The notes beneath the pieces are model-generated. The model ran no database searches, was not told the origin of the DNA, and was given only the letters and a program-made list of their open reading frames with translations. A DNA stretch of 63,104 bases from Gluconobacter oxydans. GTDB taxonomy: Bacteria > Pseudomonadota > Alphaproteobacteria > Acetobacterales > Acetobacteraceae. This document shows, piece after piece, positions 16,206 through 57,229 of the stretch (positions are counted from its first letter, which is position 1; every line of letters begins with the position of its first letter). Both the position numbers and the translations under genes were made by a program. The DNA lies in assembly GCF_006539685.1 (NCBI RefSeq), contig NZ_BJNM01000017.1, forward strand, positions 1 through 63,104. The letters run 5' to 3'.

Positions 16206-16817
16206 TTAGGCCGCAAGGACCTTCAGTTCCCGCAGTTCCTCCAGGAGTGGCAACAGCGGCAGTCCCATCACGGCATCCTGCACCCCCTCGACAGCCGAAA
16301 AAAGCTGTATCCCGGGGCCTTCAAGCCGATACGCCCCTACACAGGACAGGATCGCCGGTCCTTCACGCTCCAGATAGGCCTTCAGAAAGTCGTCAGAGAA
16401 ATCCCGCATCGTCAGCCGCGGCGAGGCCAGATGCTCCCAGACCTTCTCGCCCCCCTTATAGAGAACGACTGCCGTGCGCAGGACATGCGTCCGCCCCCGC
16501 AACCGGCGCAGATGCTCCGCCGCCTCGGCCACAGACCCTGGCTTGGCAAACGCTACCCCGTCCAGATCGAGGATCTGGTCCGCCGCAACCGTTAGCTCAT
16601 CAAAGCCCACATCCCGCGTCGCAAGATTGGCTTTTGCATCCGCCAGCGCGATGGCCGTTTGGGAAAGCGTGTGGCCCTGCTCTTCGCAGGATCGCCGCAA
16701 CGCCTCCTCGTCCAGATCGACCGGTCTGGCCTGCACGGCCAGCCCCGCATTTTCGAGCAGCATGCGCCGGGCCGAAGAGCCGCTGGCAAGAATGAGGGAA
16801 GTACTGAAAGACATCAT
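16206..16817 (-). CDS. Maf-family nucleotide pyrophosphatase, YceF-like
   Basis: This 203-residue Maf/Ham1-type pyrophosphatase has the N-terminal LILASGSSARRMLLENAGL phosphate-binding loop and AADQILDLDG. The ADQ form of the second motif matches the YceF subgroup, which acts on 7-methyl-GTP, while the second Maf in this window has ADTVV. The gene is divergent from hemE across the candidate origin, matching the maf/hemE arrangement around alphaproteobacterial oriC. Its function is house-cleaning of modified nucleotides; substrate preference is by subfamily inference. Confidence 0.85.
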   Translation of the reverse strand: MMSFSTSLILASGSSARRMLLENAGLAVQARPVDLDEEALRRSCEEQGHTLSQTAIALADAKANLATRDVGFDELTVAADQILDLDGVAFAKPGSVAEAAEHLRRLRGRTHVLRTAVVLYKGGEKVWEHLASPRLTMRDFSDDFLKAYLEREGPAILSCVGAYRLEGPGIQLFSAVEGVQDAVMGLPLLPLLEELRELKVLAA

Positions 16818-17170
16818 GAAGTACGACTCCGTACTATCGACTGTTGGAACAGGGACGAGTACTGCGGATCACCCGGTGAAGAGATTGCGTCAGTACTGGG
16901 GTACATGGGGATAGTACCTGCCCTTGCGAAAGGAGTACCGAGTACCGTGGATTGTACGGTACACCAGCCGGAACTGGGGGTTGTACACAGGCTCTCTGTG
17001 GGCAATTCGGGATTGAATCAACGACTCCCTTGCAAAGTGCGGCTTCCGGAGTTGTACACAGTGTGAGTAAGACGGGGTACATTTTCAGAAAGCCGGGTAC
17101 CCCGGTATCCACAGGGATCATCTTAACCTCCAGCATTTCTTTCTTTTTTCTTTTATGATTAGTGGGCGAC
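16818..17170. other. oriC: Candidate chromosomal replication origin (oriC), GTAC-rich
   Basis: This 353-bp gene-free gap separates divergent maf and hemE. It holds DnaA-box-like 9-mers: TTGTACACA at 16981-16989 and 17052-17060, GTATCCACA at 17105-17113, and TTGCCCACA on the minus strand at 16997-17005. Three GANTC (CcrM-type) sites lie at 16825, 17015 and 17023. GTAC occurs 14 times between 16821 and 17100, where about one is expected. An AT-rich T-tract (17136-17160), suitable for unwinding, precedes hemE. Origins next to hemE are known in Caulobacter and Rickettsia. None of the boxes is a perfect TTATCCACA, and I saw no clean strand-skew switch, so this remains a prediction. Confidence 0.6.
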
Positions 17171-18232
17171 ATGATTTCGGAAAACGCACCTTCCTCACCC
17201 TCGTCGAAACCGCTTCTGCGGGCCCTCCGTGGTGAAGCCGTCTGGCCGCCTCCGGTCTGGCTCATGCGTCAGGCAGGCCGATATCTCCCCGAATTCCGCG
17301 CCATGCGGGACAGGGCCGACTTCCTGACCCGATGCATGACCCCGGACATGGCCACCGAGCTGACGATCCAGCCGATCCGCCGCTACGGCATGGACGGGGC
17401 CATCCTGTTTTCCGACATCCTGATCCTGCCCTGGGCGATGGGTCAGTCCCTTGAATTCATTGACGGACGCGGCCCCGTGCTCGGCGCCATCCGCTCCGAA
17501 GCCGACCTCGCCAGACTGGACCCGAAGCGCGTACAGGATGCCGTCGCACCCGTGCGAGAGACCTTGTCCCGCCTCACAAAAGAGCTTCCGGACGTCACCA
17601 CGCTTCTGGGCTTCGCAGGCAGCCCGTTCACGGTGTCCTGCTACATGGTCGAGGGCGGCGGATCGCGGGATTTCGCCGAAACCCGCCGCATGATGCAGAC
17701 CAACCCGGCCCTGTTCGATCGCCTGATCGACACCCTGACCTCGAGTACCGCCGAGATGCTCTGCGGCCAGATCGAAGCCGGTGCGGAAGCCGTAATGCTG
17801 TTCGATTCCTGGGCCGGAATCCTGCCGCCCTCCGCGTTCCGCCGCTACGTGATCGAGCCGACGCGCCAGATCGTCGAGTACATCCGTGCCCGTCACCCCA
17901 AGACGCCGATCATCGGTTTCCCGCGTCTTGGCGGCATCATGGTCCGCGAATATGCCCAGAAAACCGGCGTCAACACGCTCGCCCTCGACACCGTCGCCGA
18001 CCCGGCCCAGATCTCCGAACTGGTCTCCGAAGTCCGCCCCGGCCTGACGCTTCAAGGCAACATGGATCCGATGATCCTGTTCTCCGGCGGCGAGACAATG
18101 ATCCGCGAAGCCCAGGCCATCCGGGACGCGATGCGCGGAAAACCGCATGTTTTCAACCTCGGACACGGCGTCATGCAGCACACGCCACCTGAAAACGTGG
18201 CGGCCCTCGTCGAGGCGGTACGCGCGGTATGA
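17171..18232 (+). CDS. hemE: Uroporphyrinogen decarboxylase
   Basis: This 353-residue cytosolic enzyme removes four carboxyl groups from uroporphyrinogen III to give coproporphyrinogen III in haem synthesis. The two PROSITE-type signatures are present: PPVWLMRQAGRYLPEFR near the N-terminus and GFAGSPFTVSCYMVEGGGS in the middle, with active-site Asp in ILFSDILILPWAMG. The ATG at 17171 is preferred; an in-frame GTG at 17162 is possible. The stop overlaps the following HAD gene by ATGA, and hemJ follows, so this is a haem operon next to the putative origin. Confidence 0.96.
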   Translation: MISENAPSSPSSKPLLRALRGEAVWPPPVWLMRQAGRYLPEFRAMRDRADFLTRCMTPDMATELTIQPIRRYGMDGAILFSDILILPWAMGQSLEFIDGRGPVLGAIRSEADLARLDPKRVQDAVAPVRETLSRLTKELPDVTTLLGFAGSPFTVSCYMVEGGGSRDFAETRRMMQTNPALFDRLIDTLTSSTAEMLCGQIEAGAEAVMLFDSWAGILPPSAFRRYVIEPTRQIVEYIRARHPKTPIIGFPRLGGIMVREYAQKTGVNTLALDTVADPAQISELVSEVRPGLTLQGNMDPMILFSGGETMIREAQAIRDAMRGKPHVFNLGHGVMQHTPPENVAALVEAVRAV

Positions 18233-40427: not shown

Positions 40428-42965
40428 TCAGAAGCCGGCGCTGATGGAACCCGTCGCAGCGAACGGTGCCGCGATCATGTAGGTCGGGGTGGAACCCTTG
40501 ACCGTGTTGCCGAAGATGCCGCGCATCGTCGTGGCATTGGTCTGCAGACCAATCGGGAAGCCCAGATAGTGCTTGTTGGTGATGTTGGTCAGGTTCAGCT
40601 TGACGTTCGGGGCCTGGAGGAAGCCCAGGTTCTTGAAGCGGTAGCCCACGGTGATGTTCATCTTGACGTAGCCCGGGATGCTCTCGTCGTTCATGAACGT
40701 GGAATACTGCTTGGCGACGTATTTCAGGTTGTAGGCACCGAAGACATTGCCGTCGTCATAATCGAGGTTGAAGCCAACCTGATACTTCGGCGTTTCCGGA
40801 GCAAACTTGCCCTTGGTGGGCAGATAGTCGATGGACGAACCGCTGCCGGCACGCAGGTTGCTCGTCGTGCGGGCATCAACATACTCGAAAGAGACATACG
40901 GACGGATGTGATAGAAGATCGGACGCGTTCCGACTTCGGCATCCACACCGTTCGTGCTCTGGCCGCCAGCGTTGATGCTGCCGGTTGCGTAGCTGCTGCA
41001 GCTCTCGTCCAGACATTCGCTCTGGGAGAAGAAGCGGTTCGTGAAGTTGTAGTGGAAGTACGTGACCGAGGCCATGACCGTCGGACCCGTGTAACGCCAG
41101 CCGGCTTCTTCCGAAATCGAGATTTCAGGCTGCAGGTTGGTCGAGCCGTGCGTGGAATAGCCACCGTTCTTGTAGTAGGTGCCAGCGTCGTACAGGGAGT
41201 AGTTCGTCGGGATACGGAAGTTCGTGGAACCCGAGACGAAGACCTGCATTTCCGGATTGATCTGGTAACGGATCGCAGCGGTCGGCAGCGGCTGGTAATA
41301 CGTCTTGTTGATGTACGGACCCGTGGACGTATCGGGCAGCATGTTGTGCGCATCGCGGGTGACGATGGCATATTTCAGGCCGCCGTCGATCGTCAGTTTG
41401 TTGTGCAGCAGCGACAGGCTGTCGCCGATGAACATCGTATGCGTCCGCGTCTGCGTCAGGCTCTGACGGTACTGGTAGGTCGTGCCGTCATTGAACACGA
41501 AGTTCGGGCCGGCGCCCCACAGGTTCCACGGCGTACCATCGGAAGCGATACCCGTTGCTGGTGCGGTCTGGGACTGCTTGGCATATTCGAACCAGTAACC
41601 GACCATCAGACGGTTCACACCCGTGGTCAGCGTCAGCTTCGTGACGGCACCCGGACGATACGTCGTCGTGATGGACGGCTCGTAGATCAGGCTGCCCTTT
41701 GTCTGCGTCTTGCCATCGAGCGTACCGCTCATGGACGTGGCGCCCCAGCTCGTCGGAAGGCTGTAGGCCGCACCGCCACTGCCGTCACCGTACCAGAAAT
41801 ACGGCGTTTCCGTCAGGACGAGGTGGTCCGTCAGCTTGAAGGTGGAAGGCGCACTGGCATAGATGTTGGTGAACGGGTTCTGATGCAGCTTGTAGTAGCT
41901 GGCGTCACCTGCCGTCGTCTTGCCGGTCGGGTCCTTGTAGACACCGTTATAAGAGGTGTTGGAAATCGTGGAGCCGGACGTGTTCTTGAACGTCGTGCCG
42001 TTCGGACGGGTACAGGTGCTGCCGCTGTAACAGGGCGCGATGTACTGGTCCTTCACACCGAAACCGTACGTCTCCCAGGACGCCTGGTTCACGCTCGGCG
42101 TCAGGTAGTTGTAAAGGCGGTTGCCGACGATCGCGAGCGAGACGCGGTTGCCGTCACCCCAGTCGTTCACGAACTTCGCTTCGGCATGAAGCTTGCGGTT
42201 CGTGGCCATGGAGTGGATGGCATCTTCGGTCGCATAGGAGCCGGAGAAATAGGCGCGCAGGTTGGTCTGGCCGATCTTGCCGGTATCCAGACGCAGGAAG
42301 CCGCGCGTGTAGTCGTATGACCCGTAGGAGACGTCGAACGCGCCGCCCTTCTTCATCTTCGGATCGATCATGTACATGTCGACCACGCCGCCGGTGGCGC
42401 TCAGATGCGGGCTGTCGAGGTCGGCGGAACCCTGTGCCAGGCTGACCTTGCGCAGGTTCTCGGAGTCCACGATTTCCTGGGAATAGACCGAGAAGGAACC
42501 GATATCGTTGATCGGGAAGCCTTCAAGCGTGAAGCCCATCTGCGACTGGTCGAGGCCGCGGGCGCTCATGTGGCTGCCCGTCAGACCTGCCGGATCGGAA
42601 GACGAAACGTTTGCGCCCGGAAGCAGTGCGATCAGCTGCATCGGGTCCTGACCCGGTGCCTGCTTTTCGATGTAGTCACGGGAGATGGCCGAAACGGACT
42701 TTGCGGAGTCCTGTTTCTGCATCAGACCACCACCGACATCGCGGCGCGTTACGCCATCGAAATAGGTGTGATGTCCGCTGACGGAGACATGTTCTTCATG
42801 TTCGTCTGTTGGAGCCGTATTGCCCATCATGGACGGAGCGGCAGCAGCGACTTTCGTGGGGCTCTTCTTGTTGGAAGAGGCCGTGCTGTCTGCGGGTGCG
42901 GCAAATGCCGACACCGTACCGAACGCAAACAGGGCCGAAGTCGAAAGCAGGCGAGCAAGGCGCAT
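40428..42965 (-). CDS. TonB-dependent outer-membrane receptor, ligand unknown
   Basis: This 845-residue protein has a signal peptide (MRLARLLSTSALFAFGTVSAFA), a short Ser/Lys/Pro-rich linker with a TonB-box-like EEHVSVSGHH, a plug domain (residues about 75-200, with DYIEKQAPGQDPMQLIALLPG and SARGLDQSQMGFTLEGFPI) and a long beta-barrel ending in aromatic Phe. Loops contain Cys pairs (APCYSGSTCTRP, SECLDESCSSY) that could form disulphides. It is monocistronic with a strong terminator. Neighbours give no hint of the ligand; relatives carry ferric siderophores or carbohydrates. Confidence 0.9.
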   Translation of the reverse strand: MRLARLLSTSALFAFGTVSAFAAPADSTASSNKKSPTKVAAAAPSMMGNTAPTDEHEEHVSVSGHHTYFDGVTRRDVGGGLMQKQDSAKSVSAISRDYIEKQAPGQDPMQLIALLPGANVSSSDPAGLTGSHMSARGLDQSQMGFTLEGFPINDIGSFSVYSQEIVDSENLRKVSLAQGSADLDSPHLSATGGVVDMYMIDPKMKKGGAFDVSYGSYDYTRGFLRLDTGKIGQTNLRAYFSGSYATEDAIHSMATNRKLHAEAKFVNDWGDGNRVSLAIVGNRLYNYLTPSVNQASWETYGFGVKDQYIAPCYSGSTCTRPNGTTFKNTSGSTISNTSYNGVYKDPTGKTTAGDASYYKLHQNPFTNIYASAPSTFKLTDHLVLTETPYFWYGDGSGGAAYSLPTSWGATSMSGTLDGKTQTKGSLIYEPSITTTYRPGAVTKLTLTTGVNRLMVGYWFEYAKQSQTAPATGIASDGTPWNLWGAGPNFVFNDGTTYQYRQSLTQTRTHTMFIGDSLSLLHNKLTIDGGLKYAIVTRDAHNMLPDTSTGPYINKTYYQPLPTAAIRYQINPEMQVFVSGSTNFRIPTNYSLYDAGTYYKNGGYSTHGSTNLQPEISISEEAGWRYTGPTVMASVTYFHYNFTNRFFSQSECLDESCSSYATGSINAGGQSTNGVDAEVGTRPIFYHIRPYVSFEYVDARTTSNLRAGSGSSIDYLPTKGKFAPETPKYQVGFNLDYDDGNVFGAYNLKYVAKQYSTFMNDESIPGYVKMNITVGYRFKNLGFLQAPNVKLNLTNITNKHYLGFPIGLQTNATTMRGIFGNTVKGSTPTYMIAAPFAATGSISAGF

Positions 42966-43188
42966 CGTATTTTCGGTCTTTCTCGGTCAGGTGAACTTTC
43001 AACCGAGAAAAAGCATGAGTACCGGCTCTATTTCAATCAGATGTAGAGTGATACAGTATGACATGAAAGGGATATGGCAATTTAGTCACATTTCGCTGAT
43101 GTAACGGCACGAAATGGCAGGTAACTCCCTGCGTATTGTGACATTTGGAAGACATGACCCGTTTTTCTGGGGCGATCGTTTCAAAAAG
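42966..43188. promoter_or_regulatory. Upstream region of the TonB receptor gene
   Basis: This 223-bp gap lies between the receptor start and the end of the sulfotransferase gene. It should hold the receptor promoter. I see no Fur box or riboswitch. Confidence 0.35.
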
Positions 43189-43956: not shown

Positions 43957-44128
43957 GATCGTGTCCTGATCCTGTATCCGATGGCAGGAACACTGACGTC
44001 CGGGGATATTCGAGGCAAAGGCCGTATTGTAACAGAATGAAAGCCATGTTGCAGAGTTGTGCGGTATCAAATCAGCCAGAAATGGATGTTTGTGTTTGAC
44101 TTGTGTCGCCCGGGGCGCTTCATGACAC

Positions 44129-44312
44129 CTGACGGTGCCCGGCCTGCCGGGTGAAAAGGGAACGCAGTGCAAAACTGCGGCTGCCCCCGCAACTGTAAGT
44201 GCTGACTGTCGCTCCGTAACGGGCGAACAGTACGGCTTCAGGAGAGAACCCACTGGCCCGGTGCCGGGAAGGGGCCTGAGACCGGAGCGCGAGCCAGGAG
44301 ACCTGCCGTCAG
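44129..44312 (+). ncRNA. Cobalamin riboswitch
   Basis: The P1 stem CTGACGG (44129) pairs with CCGTCAG (44306-44312). Between them are the B12-box features: GGGTGAAAAGGGAA, GTGCAAAACTGCGGCTGCCC, CCGCAACTGTAA, the CCACTGG and CCGGGAAGG core, and GAGCCAGGAGACCTGCC. It stands 119 bp before btuB and should shut down the btu locus when adenosylcobalamin is plentiful. The whole gap 43957-44431 has no gene; the part after the riboswitch should hold the expression platform. Confidence 0.96.
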
Positions 44313-44431
44313 CATGAGTTGTCCGAAGGACGGTCCGGGCGGGGTGCATCGGAACGCCGGGTCAGGCCCTGTCACTGCGGGTCTGCCTCCTTCTTGAGGG
44401 CGACGCAGAACGACGAGACATTACTATCGCC

Positions 44432-46429
44432 ATGCCCCGTATTTCCTGCCTTCTTTTCGCGACGAGCATGCTTGTCGCCGTTCCCGCGCTGGCGTCCGTC
44501 CCGGCCCAGGAACCGGCACCGCCGCAGAAGCCCAAGGCACCCCCGGCTGTTCCCCGGACGACAGCCACCAGTGCCCCGCAGAGCACGCCGGACGCCGTGA
44601 CCGCTACCGTCCCCGAGACCGTCACCGTAACGGCCAATCGCATCCCGCAGGACATCAGCAAGGTCGGCTCGCAGGTTACGGTTGTGACCCAGCGTGACAT
44701 TGAACTTCTGCAGCGGCGCGACCTTGCGGACCTTCTGGCGCGTGAGCCGGGCCTGAACATGGTGCGCACGGGCGGCCCCGGCGGGACGGGGTCGATCTTC
44801 ATGCGCGGGGTCAATTCCAATGAAGTGAAGGTGCGGCTGGACGGGATGGACATCAATGATCCGTCCACGCCGGCCGGGGCATTTGATACGGCGCAGTTCC
44901 TCACCGATGGTCTGGCCCGGGTGGAAATCCTGCGCGGACCGCAGAGTGGTCTTTATGGTGCAGATGCGATGGGCGGCGTCATCGACATGACGACCAAGCA
45001 GGGGCAGGGACCGCTGCACGGTTTTGTCCGTCTTGAAGGTGGCAGCTATTCCACCAAGAACGAGACGGCCGGGTTTTCAGGTTCGCTCCATCGTTTCCAC
45101 TATATGGTTGAAGTCTCGCATAACCATGTCGGCGACTATCAGGCCGTGCCGAAAGCCATCCGCGCGCAGGTCCAAGGCCATGATGTCGCGTCCAACCGCA
45201 ACGACAACCGTACGGCCAATGTACGCCTCGGCTATGACGTGACGGACAATTTCGATCTCGGCTTTACGGCCCATCTGACGCAGGCGGATTACGAATACGT
45301 CGCCGACGATTACAGCTCCTACCCTACGCTGCCGTCAGCCCAGCAGAACGAGAGCGACCTCAAACAGGCCATCCTGCGCGGTACCGCTCATCTGAAGTCC
45401 TTCAAGGGCGTGTTCGAGCAGACGCTGGGCGTTGGTTACATCACTTATGACCGCCATGACATTACGGCTGGCGATCCGGATATCTCGTCCAATCGCGGTG
45501 ACCGTCTGAAAGTGGACTGGCAGGGCCTGACCCATCTCGGCCATAATGGCTCCTTCCTCGTCGGATACGACTATATCCGCGAGCGGATCATGACCCCGGT
45601 TTCCGCCCAGACCACGACGAACGCCGCCTGGGGACAGCTCGAAGGCCACTGGCACGACATCCTCTTCGGCTCAGCCAATATCCGCTACGACAACAATTCC
45701 CGTTACGGCAATTACGTGACCTGGCGCGTCGCTCCTGCCGTGAAGATCCCCGGCACCGGCCTGACACTGAAGGCCAGCGGCGGCTCGGGCTTCCACGGTC
45801 CGTCCCTGAACCAGCTCTTCGTCAGCTACCCGACCTATTACTTCCTGGCCAATCCGAACCTGCGGGCCGAGCGTCTCCTGGGTTTCGATGCCGGCTTTGA
45901 AGAGCGCCTTCTGGACGGCAAGCTGACCTTCGGCGCCGATTATTACGGCAACCATGTCCGCAACCTCATCAACACGGCGCTGTCGGGCTACAACTACACT
46001 TATGTGAATGTCGCCCGCGCCCAGACGCATGGTGTGGAAGCCTTCGTCGATTACCGCATCATCAAGAGCGTGGATCTGCGCGGAACCTATACCTGGACGG
46101 ATGCCACGAACCGCAGCACCGGCGCTGCCCTCGTGCGCCGGCCCCGCCACAAGGCCACAGCCAGCGTCATCTGGACGCCGACCAAGCGCCTGAGCATCAC
46201 GCCAAGCCTGCTCTATGTCAGCGGCTGGCACGATCTCGACCGTTACACGTCCATGAGCACGATCGGTCATGACTACGTCACGGTGAACATCGCTGCGGAA
46301 TACAAGCTGGCCGACTTCGTCACCCTGTTCGCGCGCGGCGACAATCTGGGGAACCGGTATTATGAAAACCCGGTCGGCTATCTCCAGCCGGGCCGGTCCT
46401 TCTATGGCGGTGTGACGTTTGGCCTTTAA
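44432..46429 (+). CDS. btuB: TonB-dependent vitamin B12 receptor
   Basis: This 665-residue outer-membrane receptor has a signal peptide (MPRISCLLFATSMLVAVPALA), a Pro/Ala/Thr-rich linker, the TonB box ETVTVTANRIPQ, a plug (DIELLQRRDLADLLAREPGLN through VEILRGPQSGLYGADAMGGV) and a 22-strand-type barrel ending in GGVTFGL. The cobalamin riboswitch and the following ABC genes show the ligand is B12 or a related corrinoid. It overlaps the btuF start by 11 bp. The size is near E. coli BtuB. Confidence 0.94.
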   Translation: MPRISCLLFATSMLVAVPALASVPAQEPAPPQKPKAPPAVPRTTATSAPQSTPDAVTATVPETVTVTANRIPQDISKVGSQVTVVTQRDIELLQRRDLADLLAREPGLNMVRTGGPGGTGSIFMRGVNSNEVKVRLDGMDINDPSTPAGAFDTAQFLTDGLARVEILRGPQSGLYGADAMGGVIDMTTKQGQGPLHGFVRLEGGSYSTKNETAGFSGSLHRFHYMVEVSHNHVGDYQAVPKAIRAQVQGHDVASNRNDNRTANVRLGYDVTDNFDLGFTAHLTQADYEYVADDYSSYPTLPSAQQNESDLKQAILRGTAHLKSFKGVFEQTLGVGYITYDRHDITAGDPDISSNRGDRLKVDWQGLTHLGHNGSFLVGYDYIRERIMTPVSAQTTTNAAWGQLEGHWHDILFGSANIRYDNNSRYGNYVTWRVAPAVKIPGTGLTLKASGGSGFHGPSLNQLFVSYPTYYFLANPNLRAERLLGFDAGFEERLLDGKLTFGADYYGNHVRNLINTALSGYNYTYVNVARAQTHGVEAFVDYRIIKSVDLRGTYTWTDATNRSTGAALVRRPRHKATASVIWTPTKRLSITPSLLYVSGWHDLDRYTSMSTIGHDYVTVNIAAEYKLADFVTLFARGDNLGNRYYENPVGYLQPGRSFYGGVTFGL

Positions 46430-47291
46430 GGCGTTCCTTCACGCCCTTTCAGCCCCGATGGCAGTCCTGCTGCTGTCGGGCCTGATGACGGGTGCGATCG
46501 CCGGATCGGCCTGTGCCGGTCCGGTGCGGACCCGTATCGTTTCCCTGAACCTGTGCACGGACGAACTGCTGCTCGAACTGGCAGACCCGTCCCACATCCT
46601 CGGTCTCAGCCCATTGGCCACGGACTGCGCGGAATCCGTCCGCTGCGAGATCGCGGCGACCTATCCCGTCCAGCGCCCTGACGGCGAAAACCTCGTCGTC
46701 ACCCACCCCGACGCCGTTCTGGACGGAACATGGCACCGCCCGACGGTCCCGCTCGTGACCAATGCCCTGCACGTCCCGTTCGTGCAGCTTCCCTCCATTG
46801 GGTCCCTTGCGGATATTCCCACGCAGATCCGCACCGTCGCCCATGCCATTGGCGAGGACGCACGCGGAGACAATATGATCCGCGCTTTTGCGGACCGTCT
46901 GGAAAGTCTCCATCCCGTCCATCCGGACCAGATCCTGACAGCCACGGTCATCGGCGCGAACCTTGCGGGAGAAGAAGGGGGCCTGATTTCCGATCTGCTG
47001 AAGCGTGCCGGATTCCGCCTGTCTGCTTCCGAACGCCCGGACGGCACCATCGCGCTCGAAACACTGATCGCCCATCCGCCCGACCTTCTGGTGACGGGCA
47101 TGATTTCCGAAGGTGCGTCCCTGGCGGAAGATGCCGTGCATCATCCCGCCCTGCGGGACCGCTTCACGGGCGCGCATCTTCTGGCGCTTCCCGGCCGCCT
47201 GACCATGTGCGGCACGCCCGATACTCTCGATGCGCTGACCGCCCTGATCGCTGCGCATGACCGTCTGACCGGCACGGAGCCCTCGCCATGA
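46419..47291 (+). CDS. btuF: Cobalamin ABC transporter substrate-binding protein
   Basis: This protein of about 290 residues is a helical-backbone (cluster A-II) periplasmic binding protein like BtuF/FhuD/FepB. It has a signal peptide, then TRIVSLNLCTDELLLELADP, the family N-terminal signature. The start is TTG 46419, inside the btuB end; ATG 46458 is a shorter option that weakens the basic signal-peptide head. It overlaps the permease gene by ATGA. The riboswitch-linked operon supports corrinoid as ligand; the protein alone would not separate it from iron siderophores. Confidence 0.87.
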   Translation: MAFKAFLHALSAPMAVLLLSGLMTGAIAGSACAGPVRTRIVSLNLCTDELLLELADPSHILGLSPLATDCAESVRCEIAATYPVQRPDGENLVVTHPDAVLDGTWHRPTVPLVTNALHVPFVQLPSIGSLADIPTQIRTVAHAIGEDARGDNMIRAFADRLESLHPVHPDQILTATVIGANLAGEEGGLISDLLKRAGFRLSASERPDGTIALETLIAHPPDLLVTGMISEGASLAEDAVHHPALRDRFTGAHLLALPGRLTMCGTPDTLDALTALIAAHDRLTGTEPSP

Positions 47292-48274
47292 GCCGCTATA
47301 CATTAACCGTCGCCATATTGAGCGCCGTGGTTCTGGCTCTCGCCATCCTGTCACTGGCCGCAGGCCCGGCGGGGATCAGCGTCGTGCAAGGCCTGTCCGA
47401 CATGCTGCATGGCCGCGAGACGATCGCCGCAACCATCATCGGCCAGATTCGCCTGCCGCGCATGATCCTGGCCCTGCTGATCGGTGAAACGCTCGGCCTG
47501 TCCGGCGCAGCACTTCAGGGACTGGTCCGCAACCCGCTCGCCGATCCGGGCGTACTGGGTATTTCGGGCTGCGGTGCGCTCGGCGCCGTACTGGTCTTTT
47601 ATACCGGCGTTTCGGCAGTCTGGGCGCCCGCGCTCCCGCTGGCGGCCCTGTCCGGCGCTGGGCTCGCAACGCTCCTGCTTCTGGCCCTGACCCGTGGCGG
47701 CACGCTCGTTCTGGTGCTCGCCGGTGCAGCGCTGGGCTCCATGAGTGCCGCACTTCTGGCCCTGACGCTCAACCTCGTGCCAAGCCCCTATGCATCCTAC
47801 GAAATCATGCACTGGCTCATGGGCTCCCTGTCCCGCGCCAGCCTGCATGACGTGCTGATCGCCACACCCGGCCTCCTGATCGGCTCGGCACTACTGTTCA
47901 GCACCGGACGCTCCCTCGACGCGCTGACCCTTGGCGAAGACGTCGCACAGACGATGGGCTTCCCCCTGCGTGCGGTGCAGTGGCGCGTCGTGCTCGGAAC
48001 GGCGCTCGCGGTCGGCAGTGGCGTCGCCGTGGCAGGCGGGATCGGGTTCGTCGGCCTCGTCATGCCGCACCTGCTGCGTCCGCTCGCAGGCGCCCGACCG
48101 TCACGCCTTCTCCTGCCCTCCGCACTCGGTGGCGCGGCGCTTCTGCTGGCCGCGGATCTGTTCGTGCGCCTGCCCGTCAGCGGTGCCGAACTGCAACTTG
48201 GTGTCGTCACCTCCCTGATCGGAACGCCGGTCTTTTTCTGGCAGGTCTGGCGCCTGCGCGGCCGGCCGGTATGA
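47288..48274 (+). CDS. btuC: Cobalamin ABC transporter permease (FecCD family)
   Basis: This 328-residue protein has about ten membrane helices and the FecCD family signatures IRLPRMILALLIGETLGLSGAALQGLVRNPLADP near the N-terminus and GGIGFVGLVMPHLLRPLAG toward the C-terminus, the latter contacting the ATPase. The ATG overlaps the btuF stop by 4 bp. It carries corrinoid through the inner membrane with BtuD. Confidence 0.92.
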   Translation: MSRYTLTVAILSAVVLALAILSLAAGPAGISVVQGLSDMLHGRETIAATIIGQIRLPRMILALLIGETLGLSGAALQGLVRNPLADPGVLGISGCGALGAVLVFYTGVSAVWAPALPLAALSGAGLATLLLLALTRGGTLVLVLAGAALGSMSAALLALTLNLVPSPYASYEIMHWLMGSLSRASLHDVLIATPGLLIGSALLFSTGRSLDALTLGEDVAQTMGFPLRAVQWRVVLGTALAVGSGVAVAGGIGFVGLVMPHLLRPLAGARPSRLLLPSALGGAALLLAADLFVRLPVSGAELQLGVVTSLIGTPVFFWQVWRLRGRPV

Positions 48275-48284
48275 GGAGCGCGCC

Positions 48285-49055
48285 ATGATCCTCCAGACAG
48301 ACACGATCAGCCTGACCCTTCAGGGCAACAGACTTCTCAATGATATCGCGCTCGACGTCCGCCCCGGCGAAGTCCTCGGCCTGATCGGCCCCAACGGTGC
48401 GGGCAAGAGCACCCTCCTGCGCATCATGGCCGGACTGCTCCGCCCCGAGACCGGCCGCGTTCTGCTGGACGGACAGGACCTGTTCACCATGCCGCCCGAA
48501 GAGCGCGGCCGGCATCTGGCCTATCTCCCGCAGGAAGCGCCCGCTGCCATCGGCATGAGCGTGCGGGATGTCGCAATGCTCGGGCGCCTGCCCCATCGGC
48601 GCACGGCCTCGGCGGAACAGAATGAAACAGCCGTGCAGCAGGCTCTCGATGCGGTCGGGACGAGCGCATTCGCTGACCGCTCCTCCGCCCGTCTCTCAGG
48701 CGGCGAACGCGCCCGCGTCCTGCTTGCCCGCGCGCTGGCGGTTCAGGCTCCCATCCTGCTGGCGGACGAACCCGTCGCGGCCCTCGATCCCGCGCAGGCC
48801 CTGACGGTCATGGACCTGTTTGGCCAATGCGCTGCACAGGGTCAGGCCGTCGCCGTCGTTCTGCACGATCTGGCGCTCGCGGCCCGCTTCTGCACGCGCA
48901 TTGCTGTCCTGTCGCAGGGCCGCCTCGTCAGTATCGGCACGCCTGCCGAAGTCCTGACAGACGCCCTGTTCGCCGAGGTTTACGGCGTGGCGGTGCGACG
49001 CTGCGGCGAGGTCGCCGTGCCCTGGTCGCTGGTCTCGAGTGCGCGACGCCCATAA
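48285..49055 (+). CDS. btuD: Cobalamin ABC transporter ATP-binding protein
   Basis: This 256-residue ATPase has Walker A GPNGAGKST (K41), signature LSGGERARVLLARAL, Walker B ILLADEPVAALD and H-loop VLHDLALAARF, as in FecE/BtuD. It starts 10 bp after btuC and is the last gene of the riboswitch-controlled unit. Its last 76 bp overlap the end of the convergent transporter gene, so no terminator stands between them. Confidence 0.92.
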   Translation: MILQTDTISLTLQGNRLLNDIALDVRPGEVLGLIGPNGAGKSTLLRIMAGLLRPETGRVLLDGQDLFTMPPEERGRHLAYLPQEAPAAIGMSVRDVAMLGRLPHRRTASAEQNETAVQQALDAVGTSAFADRSSARLSGGERARVLLARALAVQAPILLADEPVAALDPAQALTVMDLFGQCAAQGQAVAVVLHDLALAARFCTRIAVLSQGRLVSIGTPAEVLTDALFAEVYGVAVRRCGEVAVPWSLVSSARRP

Positions 49056-55536: not shown

Positions 55537-56576
55537 GACAGGCTCCAGCTTGCGGGTGGGGCATTGGGATCAAGGACAAGGTCCAGCGGCCGGGCGCGAC
55601 GGGATATGAAATCCGCCAGGGCGTCGGGGTCGTTTTCCAGCGCCCTGACGAGTCCGATCGAGGCGGTCAGCGTTTGGCCGGGACGGTTTTCGCGCAGGAT
55701 CGTCCTGAGGATGGACAGTGCCTGCCCATGTGGGGAGGACAGGAGTTCATGCAAGGGGGGACGGCGGCGCGGGCGCGTCAGTTCCAGCAGGCCGGAGGGG
55801 GTGGCGCCGAGGACGTCCGGTTTCAGGGGATCGCCAGCCAGAGCCTCACGCAGGAAGGGGACGAGAGCCGGGCGTTTGCGCGTCTTCACGCCCGCCGGAT
55901 CTACAAGAATCGTGCCTGAGAGGTTCCGCAGGCGGATCTGTCGGGCCAGTTCCGGGAAGGCTGCGATATTGCCCTTGAAGTCCGGGGCGCCAGTGCTGTC
56001 GAGATCGATGGCGACAAGGGCGGGGGTTGGGAAGATGCTGGCGGTCAGGAGGCCCAGATCGGCCTCGGGGCTGCCGAGACTGTCGAAATCTGCCTCAAGC
56101 GCACCGTCGAACGCCTGCTGGCAGCGCTGAAGGCGCGGACGCAGCCGGGCGGGGAGTTTTGCCGCAATGCCCGGATCGTCCACGAAAATCGGAGCCTCCG
56201 GATAGCGGTCTGCCAGTTCATCGAGCGGGGTTGGTCCGCGTTCGAGCAGTTTGGGGCCGGAGGGGGCCCCAGTGGGTATGTCCGCACGGCGCAGGCGCAG
56301 GCCTTTGCCGTTCTGGGCGGCGCGGCTGACGCGCGCTGCGGTCAGGGCCCCTTCGATCAGGGCTTCGCGGGTGGAGAGGAAGCCGCTCTGACCGTCTTCG
56401 AGCAGGACGAATGCACCGCCCAGAGCGGGAGCGGCTTTCTGGACGCGGACGACGTGCCAGTCTTCCAGACCATCCGGGCAGCCGGGACGCCAGATCGCGG
56501 CATCCAGCAGGGTGTCATGGTCCGTGACAGCAATCCGCACTTCGCCCGGAGAACAGGCTGCGCGGATTTCGGTCAT
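55533..56576 (-). CDS. Ribonuclease E/G-family protein, short form
   Basis: This 347-residue protein has a divergent S1-like N-terminal part (GGAFVLLEDGQSGFLSTREA), the catalytic DNase-I-like region with LVAIDLDSTG (Asp191/193) and LSGTILVDPAG (Asp226), and GATPSGLLELTRPRRR. The CPxC zinc-link that follows this last motif in RNase E/G is absent, as is the C-terminal scaffold. It is therefore a minimal RNase G-like enzyme. It overlaps maf and yacG by 4 bp each. Short forms in this operon position are known in alphaproteobacteria. Confidence 0.87.
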   Translation of the reverse strand: MTEIRAACSPGEVRIAVTDHDTLLDAAIWRPGCPDGLEDWHVVRVQKAAPALGGAFVLLEDGQSGFLSTREALIEGALTAARVSRAAQNGKGLRLRRADIPTGAPSGPKLLERGPTPLDELADRYPEAPIFVDDPGIAAKLPARLRPRLQRCQQAFDGALEADFDSLGSPEADLGLLTASIFPTPALVAIDLDSTGAPDFKGNIAAFPELARQIRLRNLSGTILVDPAGVKTRKRPALVPFLREALAGDPLKPDVLGATPSGLLELTRPRRRPPLHELLSSPHGQALSILRTILRENRPGQTLTASIGLVRALENDPDALADFISRRARPLDLVLDPNAPPASWSLS

Positions 56577-57229
56577 GCGATCCAGCCACCCGAGGGCTTG
56601 CCGACCGGCTGTCCGCGCAGGAGCTGGGCCGTTTCAAACAGTGGCAGCCCCACGACGGCGGAATAGCTGCCGCCGATCTGGCGGATATGGGCGGCCGCGG
56701 CGCCCTGGATGGCATAGCCGCCCGCCTTGCCCTGCCAGTCTCCCTGCGCGATCAGGGCGTCGATCTGCGCGTCCGTCAGGCGATGGAAAATGACGGAAGT
56801 TTCCACCAGCCGCTCGCAGGGCGTGCCTTGTGGCCAGCCCGCGCTCGGGCGCAGGACCACGGCCGTCAGCACCTTGTGGCGCCGGCCGGAGAGCAGCTTC
56901 AGGCAGGCGCGGGCCGTCTTTTCGTCTTCGGCTTTCGGCAGGACGCGGCGGCCCACGGAGACCACCGTATCCGCGCCGAGGACGAGCGCTGCATCCGTGC
57001 GCTGCGCGGCCACATGCTCCGCCTTCTGGCGGGCGAGGCGCTGCGCGAGCGGGCGCGGCAGTTCACCGGGGCGCGGTTCTTCGTCGATATCGGCGCTGAC
57101 GACGGCGTCGGGCACGATGCCGATCTGTTCCAGCAGGCTCAGGCGGCGCGGGGAGGCGGAGGCCAGAACGAGCTTCGGACGGTCCGGAAGGCCGGATGAC
57201 CCTTCTGCGGAAGACGGGGAGGCGGTCAT
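56573..57229 (-). CDS. maf: Maf-family nucleotide pyrophosphatase, YhdE-like
   Basis: This 218-residue Maf protein has LVLASASPRRLSLLEQIGI (phosphate loop with the SPRR motif) and LGADTVVSVGRRVLPKAED, the ADTVV form of the dTTP/UTP-specific YhdE subgroup. It hydrolyses non-canonical or excess nucleoside triphosphates and is linked to septum inhibition. It follows infA by 13 bp and overlaps the RNase gene by 4 bp. It is distinct from the YceF-type Maf at 16206-16817. Confidence 0.92.
   Translation of the reverse strand: MTASPSSAEGSSGLPDRPKLVLASASPRRLSLLEQIGIVPDAVVSADIDEEPRPGELPRPLAQRLARQKAEHVAAQRTDAALVLGADTVVSVGRRVLPKAEDEKTARACLKLLSGRRHKVLTAVVLRPSAGWPQGTPCERLVETSVIFHRLTDAQIDALIAQGDWQGKAGGYAIQGAAAAHIRQIGGSYSAVVGLPLFETAQLLRGQPVGKPSGGWIA

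Follow-up and report, generated by a model that had tools for sequence, protein, structure and literature searches.

The region between a maf-like gene and hemE in Gluconobacter oxydans raises the question of why a single tetramer, GTAC, recurs there 15 times within 300 bp and whether such an array takes part in starting chromosome replication. "The window" denotes the whole stretch of DNA that was analyzed, 63,104 nucleotides in length, which is contig 17 of 107 in a genome of 2.7 Mb.

A GTAC array between maf and hemE

The first-pass annotation, made from the letters of the window, placed 15 GTAC copies between the divergent maf and hemE genes, and every listed position was found to be exact. 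The features of the gap and its borders are as follows.

16206..16817, minus strand: maf-like gene, located by sequence and named from family features
16801..17100, no strand assigned: GTAC array of 15 copies, with spacings of 20, 10, 28, 34, 8, 13, 21, 7, 12, 5, 24, 71, 23, and 20
16893..16945, no strand assigned: left conserved core with GTAC at 16893, 16901, 16914, 16935, and 16942, from the alignment of 34 array origins
16981..16989, plus strand: DnaA-box-like 9-mer TTGTACACA containing GTAC 16983, a copy found in 34/34 aligned origins
17052..17060, plus strand: DnaA-box-like 9-mer TTGTACACA containing GTAC 17054, also found in 34/34 aligned origins
17053..17101, plus strand: right conserved core with GTAC at 17054, 17077, and 17097 at fixed spacings of 23 and 20, each in 34/34
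17094..17115, plus strand: GGGTACCCC followed by ATCCACAGG, with the GTAC that adjoins the last DnaA-like box, from sequence
17105..17113, plus strand: GTATCCACA, a DnaA-like box with one mismatch to the DnaA box TTATCCACA
17137..17158, plus strand: T-rich tract, candidate unwinding element as judged from sequence
17171..18232, plus strand: hemE (the longest open reading frame begins at 17162)

The maf-like gene, which starts at 16817, contains the first copy (16801), and the interval 16818–17170 contains 14 copies against 0.42 expected from the GTAC frequency of the window itself. The best count for any 300 bp elsewhere in the window is 4, compared with 15 in the array, and a Poisson estimate for 15 copies per 300 bp is 4e-21. 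Sequences simulated with a first-order Markov model of the array region had a mean of 2.3 GTAC and a maximum of 9 (5000 sequences). A second-order model of the same region gave a mean of 10.6, with at least 13 copies in 1193 of 5000 sequences, but is not a valid test because a model trained on this region has absorbed the GTAC motif itself. Three GTAC occur close together at 15 places in the genome; 10 of these fall in the array, and the remaining five are single places. The flanking rate had been put at approximately four copies per kb, which holds just downstream of the array (10 in 17.1–19.6 kb), whereas the window outside the array has 60 copies in 62.8 kb, or approximately one per kb. Other elements of the first description are borne out by the sequence, including the varied flanks of the GTAC copies, the two DnaA-like 9-mers that contain GTAC (at 16981 and 17052), the three GANTC sites in the gap (16825, 17015, and 17023), and the T-rich tract. 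Next to the array in GTAC density within the window is a stretch in the interval 41058–43022, inside a TonB-receptor-like gene, with 4 copies in 300 bp, which is probably due to chance or codon use.

The array is conserved well beyond the window. Eighty named hemE loci were fetched and 63 were examined by counting GTAC in the 450 bp before hemE, and 30 of the 63 had 10–16 copies. These belong to seven genera (Gluconobacter, Neokomagataea, Acetobacter, Komagataeibacter, Gluconacetobacter, Novacetimonas, and Commensalibacter), and three further loci, from Endobacter and two metagenome bins, had 6–7 copies. The named loci of Bombella, Parasaccharibacter, Saccharibacter, Acidiphilium, Rhodopila, Acidisoma, Azospirillum, and Burkholderia had 0–4 copies in the same 450 bp. 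An absence of enrichment in orthologous hemE-maf gaps had been named as evidence against the array, and the 30 loci show the opposite result. In an alignment of 34 array origins, GTAC columns were 93% conserved compared with 61% for the others, and nine GTAC positions were common to at least 24 origins, including four common to all 34. The left-core copies at 16893, 16901, 16914, 16935, and 16942 were shared by 24, 33, 28, 30, and 32 of the 34, respectively. The array occurs at a local G+C content of 34% (G089) and of 69% (G119), and base composition therefore does not explain it. HemE from the window shares 96–98% identity with the protein of six Gluconobacter loci and 87–88% with that of three others, which places the host in Gluconobacter.

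Probable position of the chromosomal origin

GC skew in relatives points to the gap as the origin of replication. In G012 and G005, both near-complete and from the same genus as the window, the skew was negative in samples up to 1.05 Mb and positive beyond (G012) or flipped at approximately 0.97 Mb (G005), and in both the sign changed within a few kb of the maf-hemE gap. Amongst 31 array-bearing named loci, 18 switch from negative to positive skew across the gap; the others comprise seven of the G. oxydans type that stay negative, five that are indistinct, and one that is positive on both sides. Five further genomes were read over ±36 kb around the gap, and the skew minimum was 440 bp from the gap in one (G118), 30 kb away in another (G074), and 9–39 kb away in three with weak skew (G108, G095, and G071). 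In Gluconobacter japonicus the skew flips at the gap.

Bombella dulcis separates the array from its usual neighbor. Its hemE lacks the array, and the same conserved sequence occurs 26 kb off (C21:59534-59742), where the skew flips from –0.04 to +0.09. Because the array and the skew flip are found together 26 kb from hemE, the array tracks the origin and not the adjoining genes, and a role of the array as a regulator of hemE or maf is rejected on the same observation. The DnaA box consensus is TTATCCACA, and the gap contains three DnaA-like boxes (GTATCCACA and two copies of TTGTACACA) together with the T-rich tract, a box trio that occurs nowhere else in the window. The identification of the maf-hemE gap as oriC in the relatives is well supported.

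For the species of the window itself, the skew gives a different picture. In the window and in two near relatives (G007 and G016), the skew on the hemE side stays negative for approximately 36 kb, to approximately 53 kb, and the cumulative minimum of the window lies at 54 kb. A minimum away from the gap had been named as evidence against an origin there, and such a minimum, approximately 37 kb away, is what the subclade of the window has, whereas the flip is at the gap in G012 and G005. The proposal that the gap is oriC is thus carried by the flips in the relatives and in Bombella, and the skew of the window's own species speaks against it. One explanation is that the active origin of the G. 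oxydans-type subclade has shifted by approximately 37 kb, with the array there having another role or not being the start point. Such a shift would account for the long negative stretch in genomes whose gene order, in the window, is collinear with that of G. japonicus, which flips at the gap. We consider it quite improbable, as no DnaA-box or GTAC cluster and no origin-like gap was seen at 52–55 kb of the window, and the window and G007 share 95.4% identity over the block that carries maf and the array, compared with 78–94.5% over the other aligned blocks.

In the near-complete contigs of G012 and G005 (C1 in both; loci L281–L320), dnaA is at the contig start and hemE/oriC at 42–45% of the length. 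The opposite skew flip of G012 falls at 2.08–2.32 Mb of 2.48 Mb, which places dnaA closer to the terminus than to the origin.

An orphan methyltransferase that accompanies the array

A search of 80 family genomes for PF01555 (N6/N4 methyltransferases) gave a strong CcrM-like match (E below 1e-58) in 76, and many of the genomes also encode a second, shorter protein. In the genome of the window, this second methyltransferase is encoded on contig 5 (47720–48532) and has 272 residues, with TSPPYN preceding DPFxGxGT, an order that we take to mark the beta class of methyltransferases. The protein matches PF01555-type models, and its score against the NCBIfam CcrM model (72 bits) is below the cut-off of 830. 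Among its relatives in the PDB are a DNA cytosine-N4 methyltransferase, CcrM, MboIIA, and M.BceJIV (GTWWAC), the last of which was set aside as a guide to specificity. The eight open reading frames around the gene resemble a MauG-type peroxidase, MltA, Tim44, SecB, HemD, porphobilinogen deaminase, Smr, and a phosphorylase, and no endonuclease is found among these eight. Several of the neighbors are conserved beside the gene in other genomes. In three array-less genomes (G035, G112, and G115), the methyltransferase gene is 5–8 kb from hemE.

The three GTAC of the right core were used as a signature for genome searches (TGTACA-17N-GGTAC-16N-GTACC), which matched 119 of 394 Acetobacteraceae genomes, once each; a reversed control matched one genome. 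The methyltransferase is present in 175 of the 394. All 119 genomes with the signature carry the enzyme, whereas none of the 219 genomes without the enzyme has the signature. The converse does not hold, as 56 of the 175 enzyme-bearing genomes lack the signature, and most of those counted have 1–5 GTAC at hemE. The signature also misses some arrays, including two Komagataeibacter loci with 15 GTAC. In a class sample of 386 genomes, the methyltransferase and the signature coincided: both were found in the same four, each a member of the Acetobacteraceae. By a direct count of GTAC in 75 genomes from a draw of 80, all 22 array genomes have the enzyme, none of the 32 enzyme-less genomes has an array, and 21 have the enzyme and no array.

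The three meanings first offered for GTAC were a modified DnaA-box code, a target for an origin-binding protein, and a methylation site, and this co-occurrence makes a methylation site the best fit. Nevertheless, the association, although strong, is treated as mostly one history, with one gain and probably one loss. On the HemE tree, the array clade (24 rows, support 100/99) contains two genomes, G114 and G078, which have neither enzyme nor array; they are sisters with modest support (91/69), and their joint absence of both is therefore probably one loss. Independent pairs on this tree changed in the same way in one case, in the opposite way in none, and showed no difference in six, which is not significant, and it is this lack of power that leads us to regard the association as mostly a single history.

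GTAC could instead be the core site of an origin-binding protein, either an activator or a repressor, with methylation incidental or absent. The palindromic word, varied flanks, and fixed positions of the copies would suit such a protein. However, all genomes with the signature share the same orphan methyltransferase, the two array-less genomes within the clade also lack it, and varied flanks are more what one would expect of an enzyme that recognizes four bases than of most binding proteins. On balance, we regard the binding-protein explanation as unlikely.

The probable recognition word of the enzyme comes from phage homologues, which are 43–48% identical and mostly from cyanophages. In Synechococcus phages ACG-2014j and Syn19, the homologue (43% identical) overlaps a gene annotated as the R.RsaI endonuclease, and in cyanophage Syn2 the same place beside the homologue is taken by a gene that is related to the R.RsaI one but annotated as hypothetical. 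RsaI is an enzyme of GTAC, and M.RsaI makes m4C in GTAC (PMC6256690). Because some of the phage homologues adjoin genes annotated by name as R.RsaI, the orphan methyltransferase is probably specific for GTAC, and its product is perhaps m4C. The phage group ACG-2014f, whose enzyme is slightly closer (46%), has no R.RsaI-type neighbor, which makes the reading of GTAC methylation slightly less likely. The two nearest plasmid homologues (50–52% identical) have no endonuclease listed as a neighbor in plasmid gene tables that are incomplete, and neither a plasmid match nor a Pfam family was found for the R.RsaI-like protein of the phages.

The array-less genomes that carry the enzyme suggest where the array may have come from. 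In these genomes, a lone GTAC recurs in GGGTACCCC-N3-ATCCACAGG, adjoining the last DnaA-like box before hemE, and it matches the window copy at 17097, the one copy of the array that is present at the same place in many array-less relatives. The lone GTAC occurs in 19 of 21 enzyme-bearing array-less genomes compared with 9 of 32 that lack the enzyme, a count that includes G076 with a one-base shift. The array thus looks like an expansion from a single GTAC beside a DnaA box. The lone GTAC was also considered as a tracer of the enzyme and was not retained, as the independent pairs (2.3 in the same way, 0.6 opposite, and 4.1 with no difference) were not significant.

A possible methylation switch and comparable systems

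We lean towards the reading that the maf-hemE gap is the origin of the acetous Acetobacteraceae and that the GTAC array acts as a switch that controls replication initiation through methylation. The orphan beta-class methyltransferase, encoded away from the origin, would methylate the GTAC copies of the array, and passage of the replication fork would leave those of the daughter origins half-methylated. DnaA may then fail to reoccupy its weak sites, which alternate with GTAC, either as a direct effect or through a putative reader protein. Re-methylation by the orphan enzyme would end the refractory state, until which immediate re-initiation would be prevented. GTAC specificity, the chemistry, methylation in the cell, the effect on DnaA, and the reader protein are parts of this scheme that we infer, and the refractory new origin is proposed by analogy with GATC and SeqA of Escherichia coli. 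With barely more confidence than doubt, we further suggest a separately evolved replication clock, which would consist of an orphan, probably m4C-forming GTAC methyltransferase, 8–16 GTAC in oriC, and perhaps a sequestration protein, and whose array would have arisen from one GTAC next to the unwinding-proximal DnaA box, a lone copy that is retained in many sister lineages.

A further alternative is a changed DnaA-box code, in which the GTAC copies themselves would be the altered boxes. In its favor, two of the four invariant GTAC sit in TTGTACACA, and the gap of G114, which has neither array nor enzyme, contains 14 exact canonical DnaA boxes. However, the RDHTTV recognition segment is the same in 41 of 41 DnaA proteins compared, no column of the segment separates array-bearing from other family members, and the flanks of most GTAC copies are unlike a DnaA box. 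The inverse relation between the array and canonical boxes is also weak (p = 0.076, 75 genomes). As domain IV of DnaA shows no change that matches the array, its recognition segment being identical in genomes that have one and genomes that do not, the array cannot be explained simply as a new DnaA code, and this first suggestion is now highly improbable. A general inverse relation between canonical boxes and the array was likewise set aside, as only G114 and, less so, G078 (2 exact canonical boxes) are striking.

Two further observations concern these loci. The 14 exact boxes of G114 (TTATCCACA/TGTGGATAA) lie in approximately 550 bp upstream of hemE (locus L238). The DnaA proteins of Acetobacteraceae (L381–L410 and Gluconobacter) have FGNRDHTT, with N or D in 34 of 35 and a deletion in one, and six other alphaproteobacterial DnaA proteins have FGGRDHTT.

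Dense methylation sites within an origin are best known from the Dam/GATC system of enteric bacteria, and Dam belongs to another enzyme family than the PF01555-type methyltransferase. The oriC of E. coli has 11 GATC that are half-methylated after replication and bound by SeqA, which keeps DnaA off low-affinity sites (PMC13337833, PMC8488378). Like it, the present origin is dense in four-base palindromes (15 GTAC, compared with 11 GATC in E. coli), which alternate with weak DnaA sites and are conserved together with an orphan methyltransferase. The differences are the word GTAC, the PF01555-type enzyme, and the probable m4C chemistry. Moreover, the dnaA region is GATC-rich in E. coli, whereas no GTAC cluster precedes dnaA here, with 0–2 copies in 35 loci (350 bp before and 100 bp into the frame, with little or no upstream DNA in five of the 35). 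As part of the timing reading, and with the same modest inclination in its favor, the GTAC system would work like the Dam/SeqA kind without being a member of it, as both word and enzyme differ.

Three other systems share traits with this one. The alphaproteobacterial CcrM/GANTC system also has a beta-class orphan methyltransferase, and CcrM is one of the PDB relatives noted above; however, it is another protein, as the low CcrM score indicates, with another word, of which the gap has three sites. The RsaI restriction-modification system (PMC6256690) has the same probable word and probable m4C chemistry, in addition to the phage homologues beside R.RsaI-annotated genes, but the present enzyme lacks an endonuclease among its eight neighbors, is kept through the family, and has a target array in the origin. 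The archaeal orphan GTAC m4C methyltransferases HG10 and HG18 are likewise orphan, persistent in a lineage, and directed at GTAC (PMC10609329); unlike the present enzyme they are archaeal, and the passages drawn on mention no origin array. Among the matches listed from the open-access literature, none describes a GTAC origin or a GTAC methylome of Acetobacteraceae.

If the methylation reading is true, the array would be a second case of dense methylation sites within an origin, using a different word and enzyme and probably a different chemistry, and timing by hemimethylation would be a repeatable solution; the search for a reader protein would also become concrete. The host organisms are culturable vinegar and kombucha bacteria, and several natural experiments are at hand, including G114 and G078 (within the clade and without enzyme and array), Bombella (origin and hemE separated), and the sister lineages that have the enzyme and mostly one GTAC site.

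Two further features of the window lie away from the origin. A second Maf-like gene (KLVLASASPRRLSLL...) is found at 56573–57229, in addition to the maf-like gene at the origin. A cobalamin riboswitch at 44116–44324 lies upstream of a gene run (44432–49055) whose products resemble a cobalamin-uptake TonB receptor, binding protein, permease, and ATPase, as named by eye.
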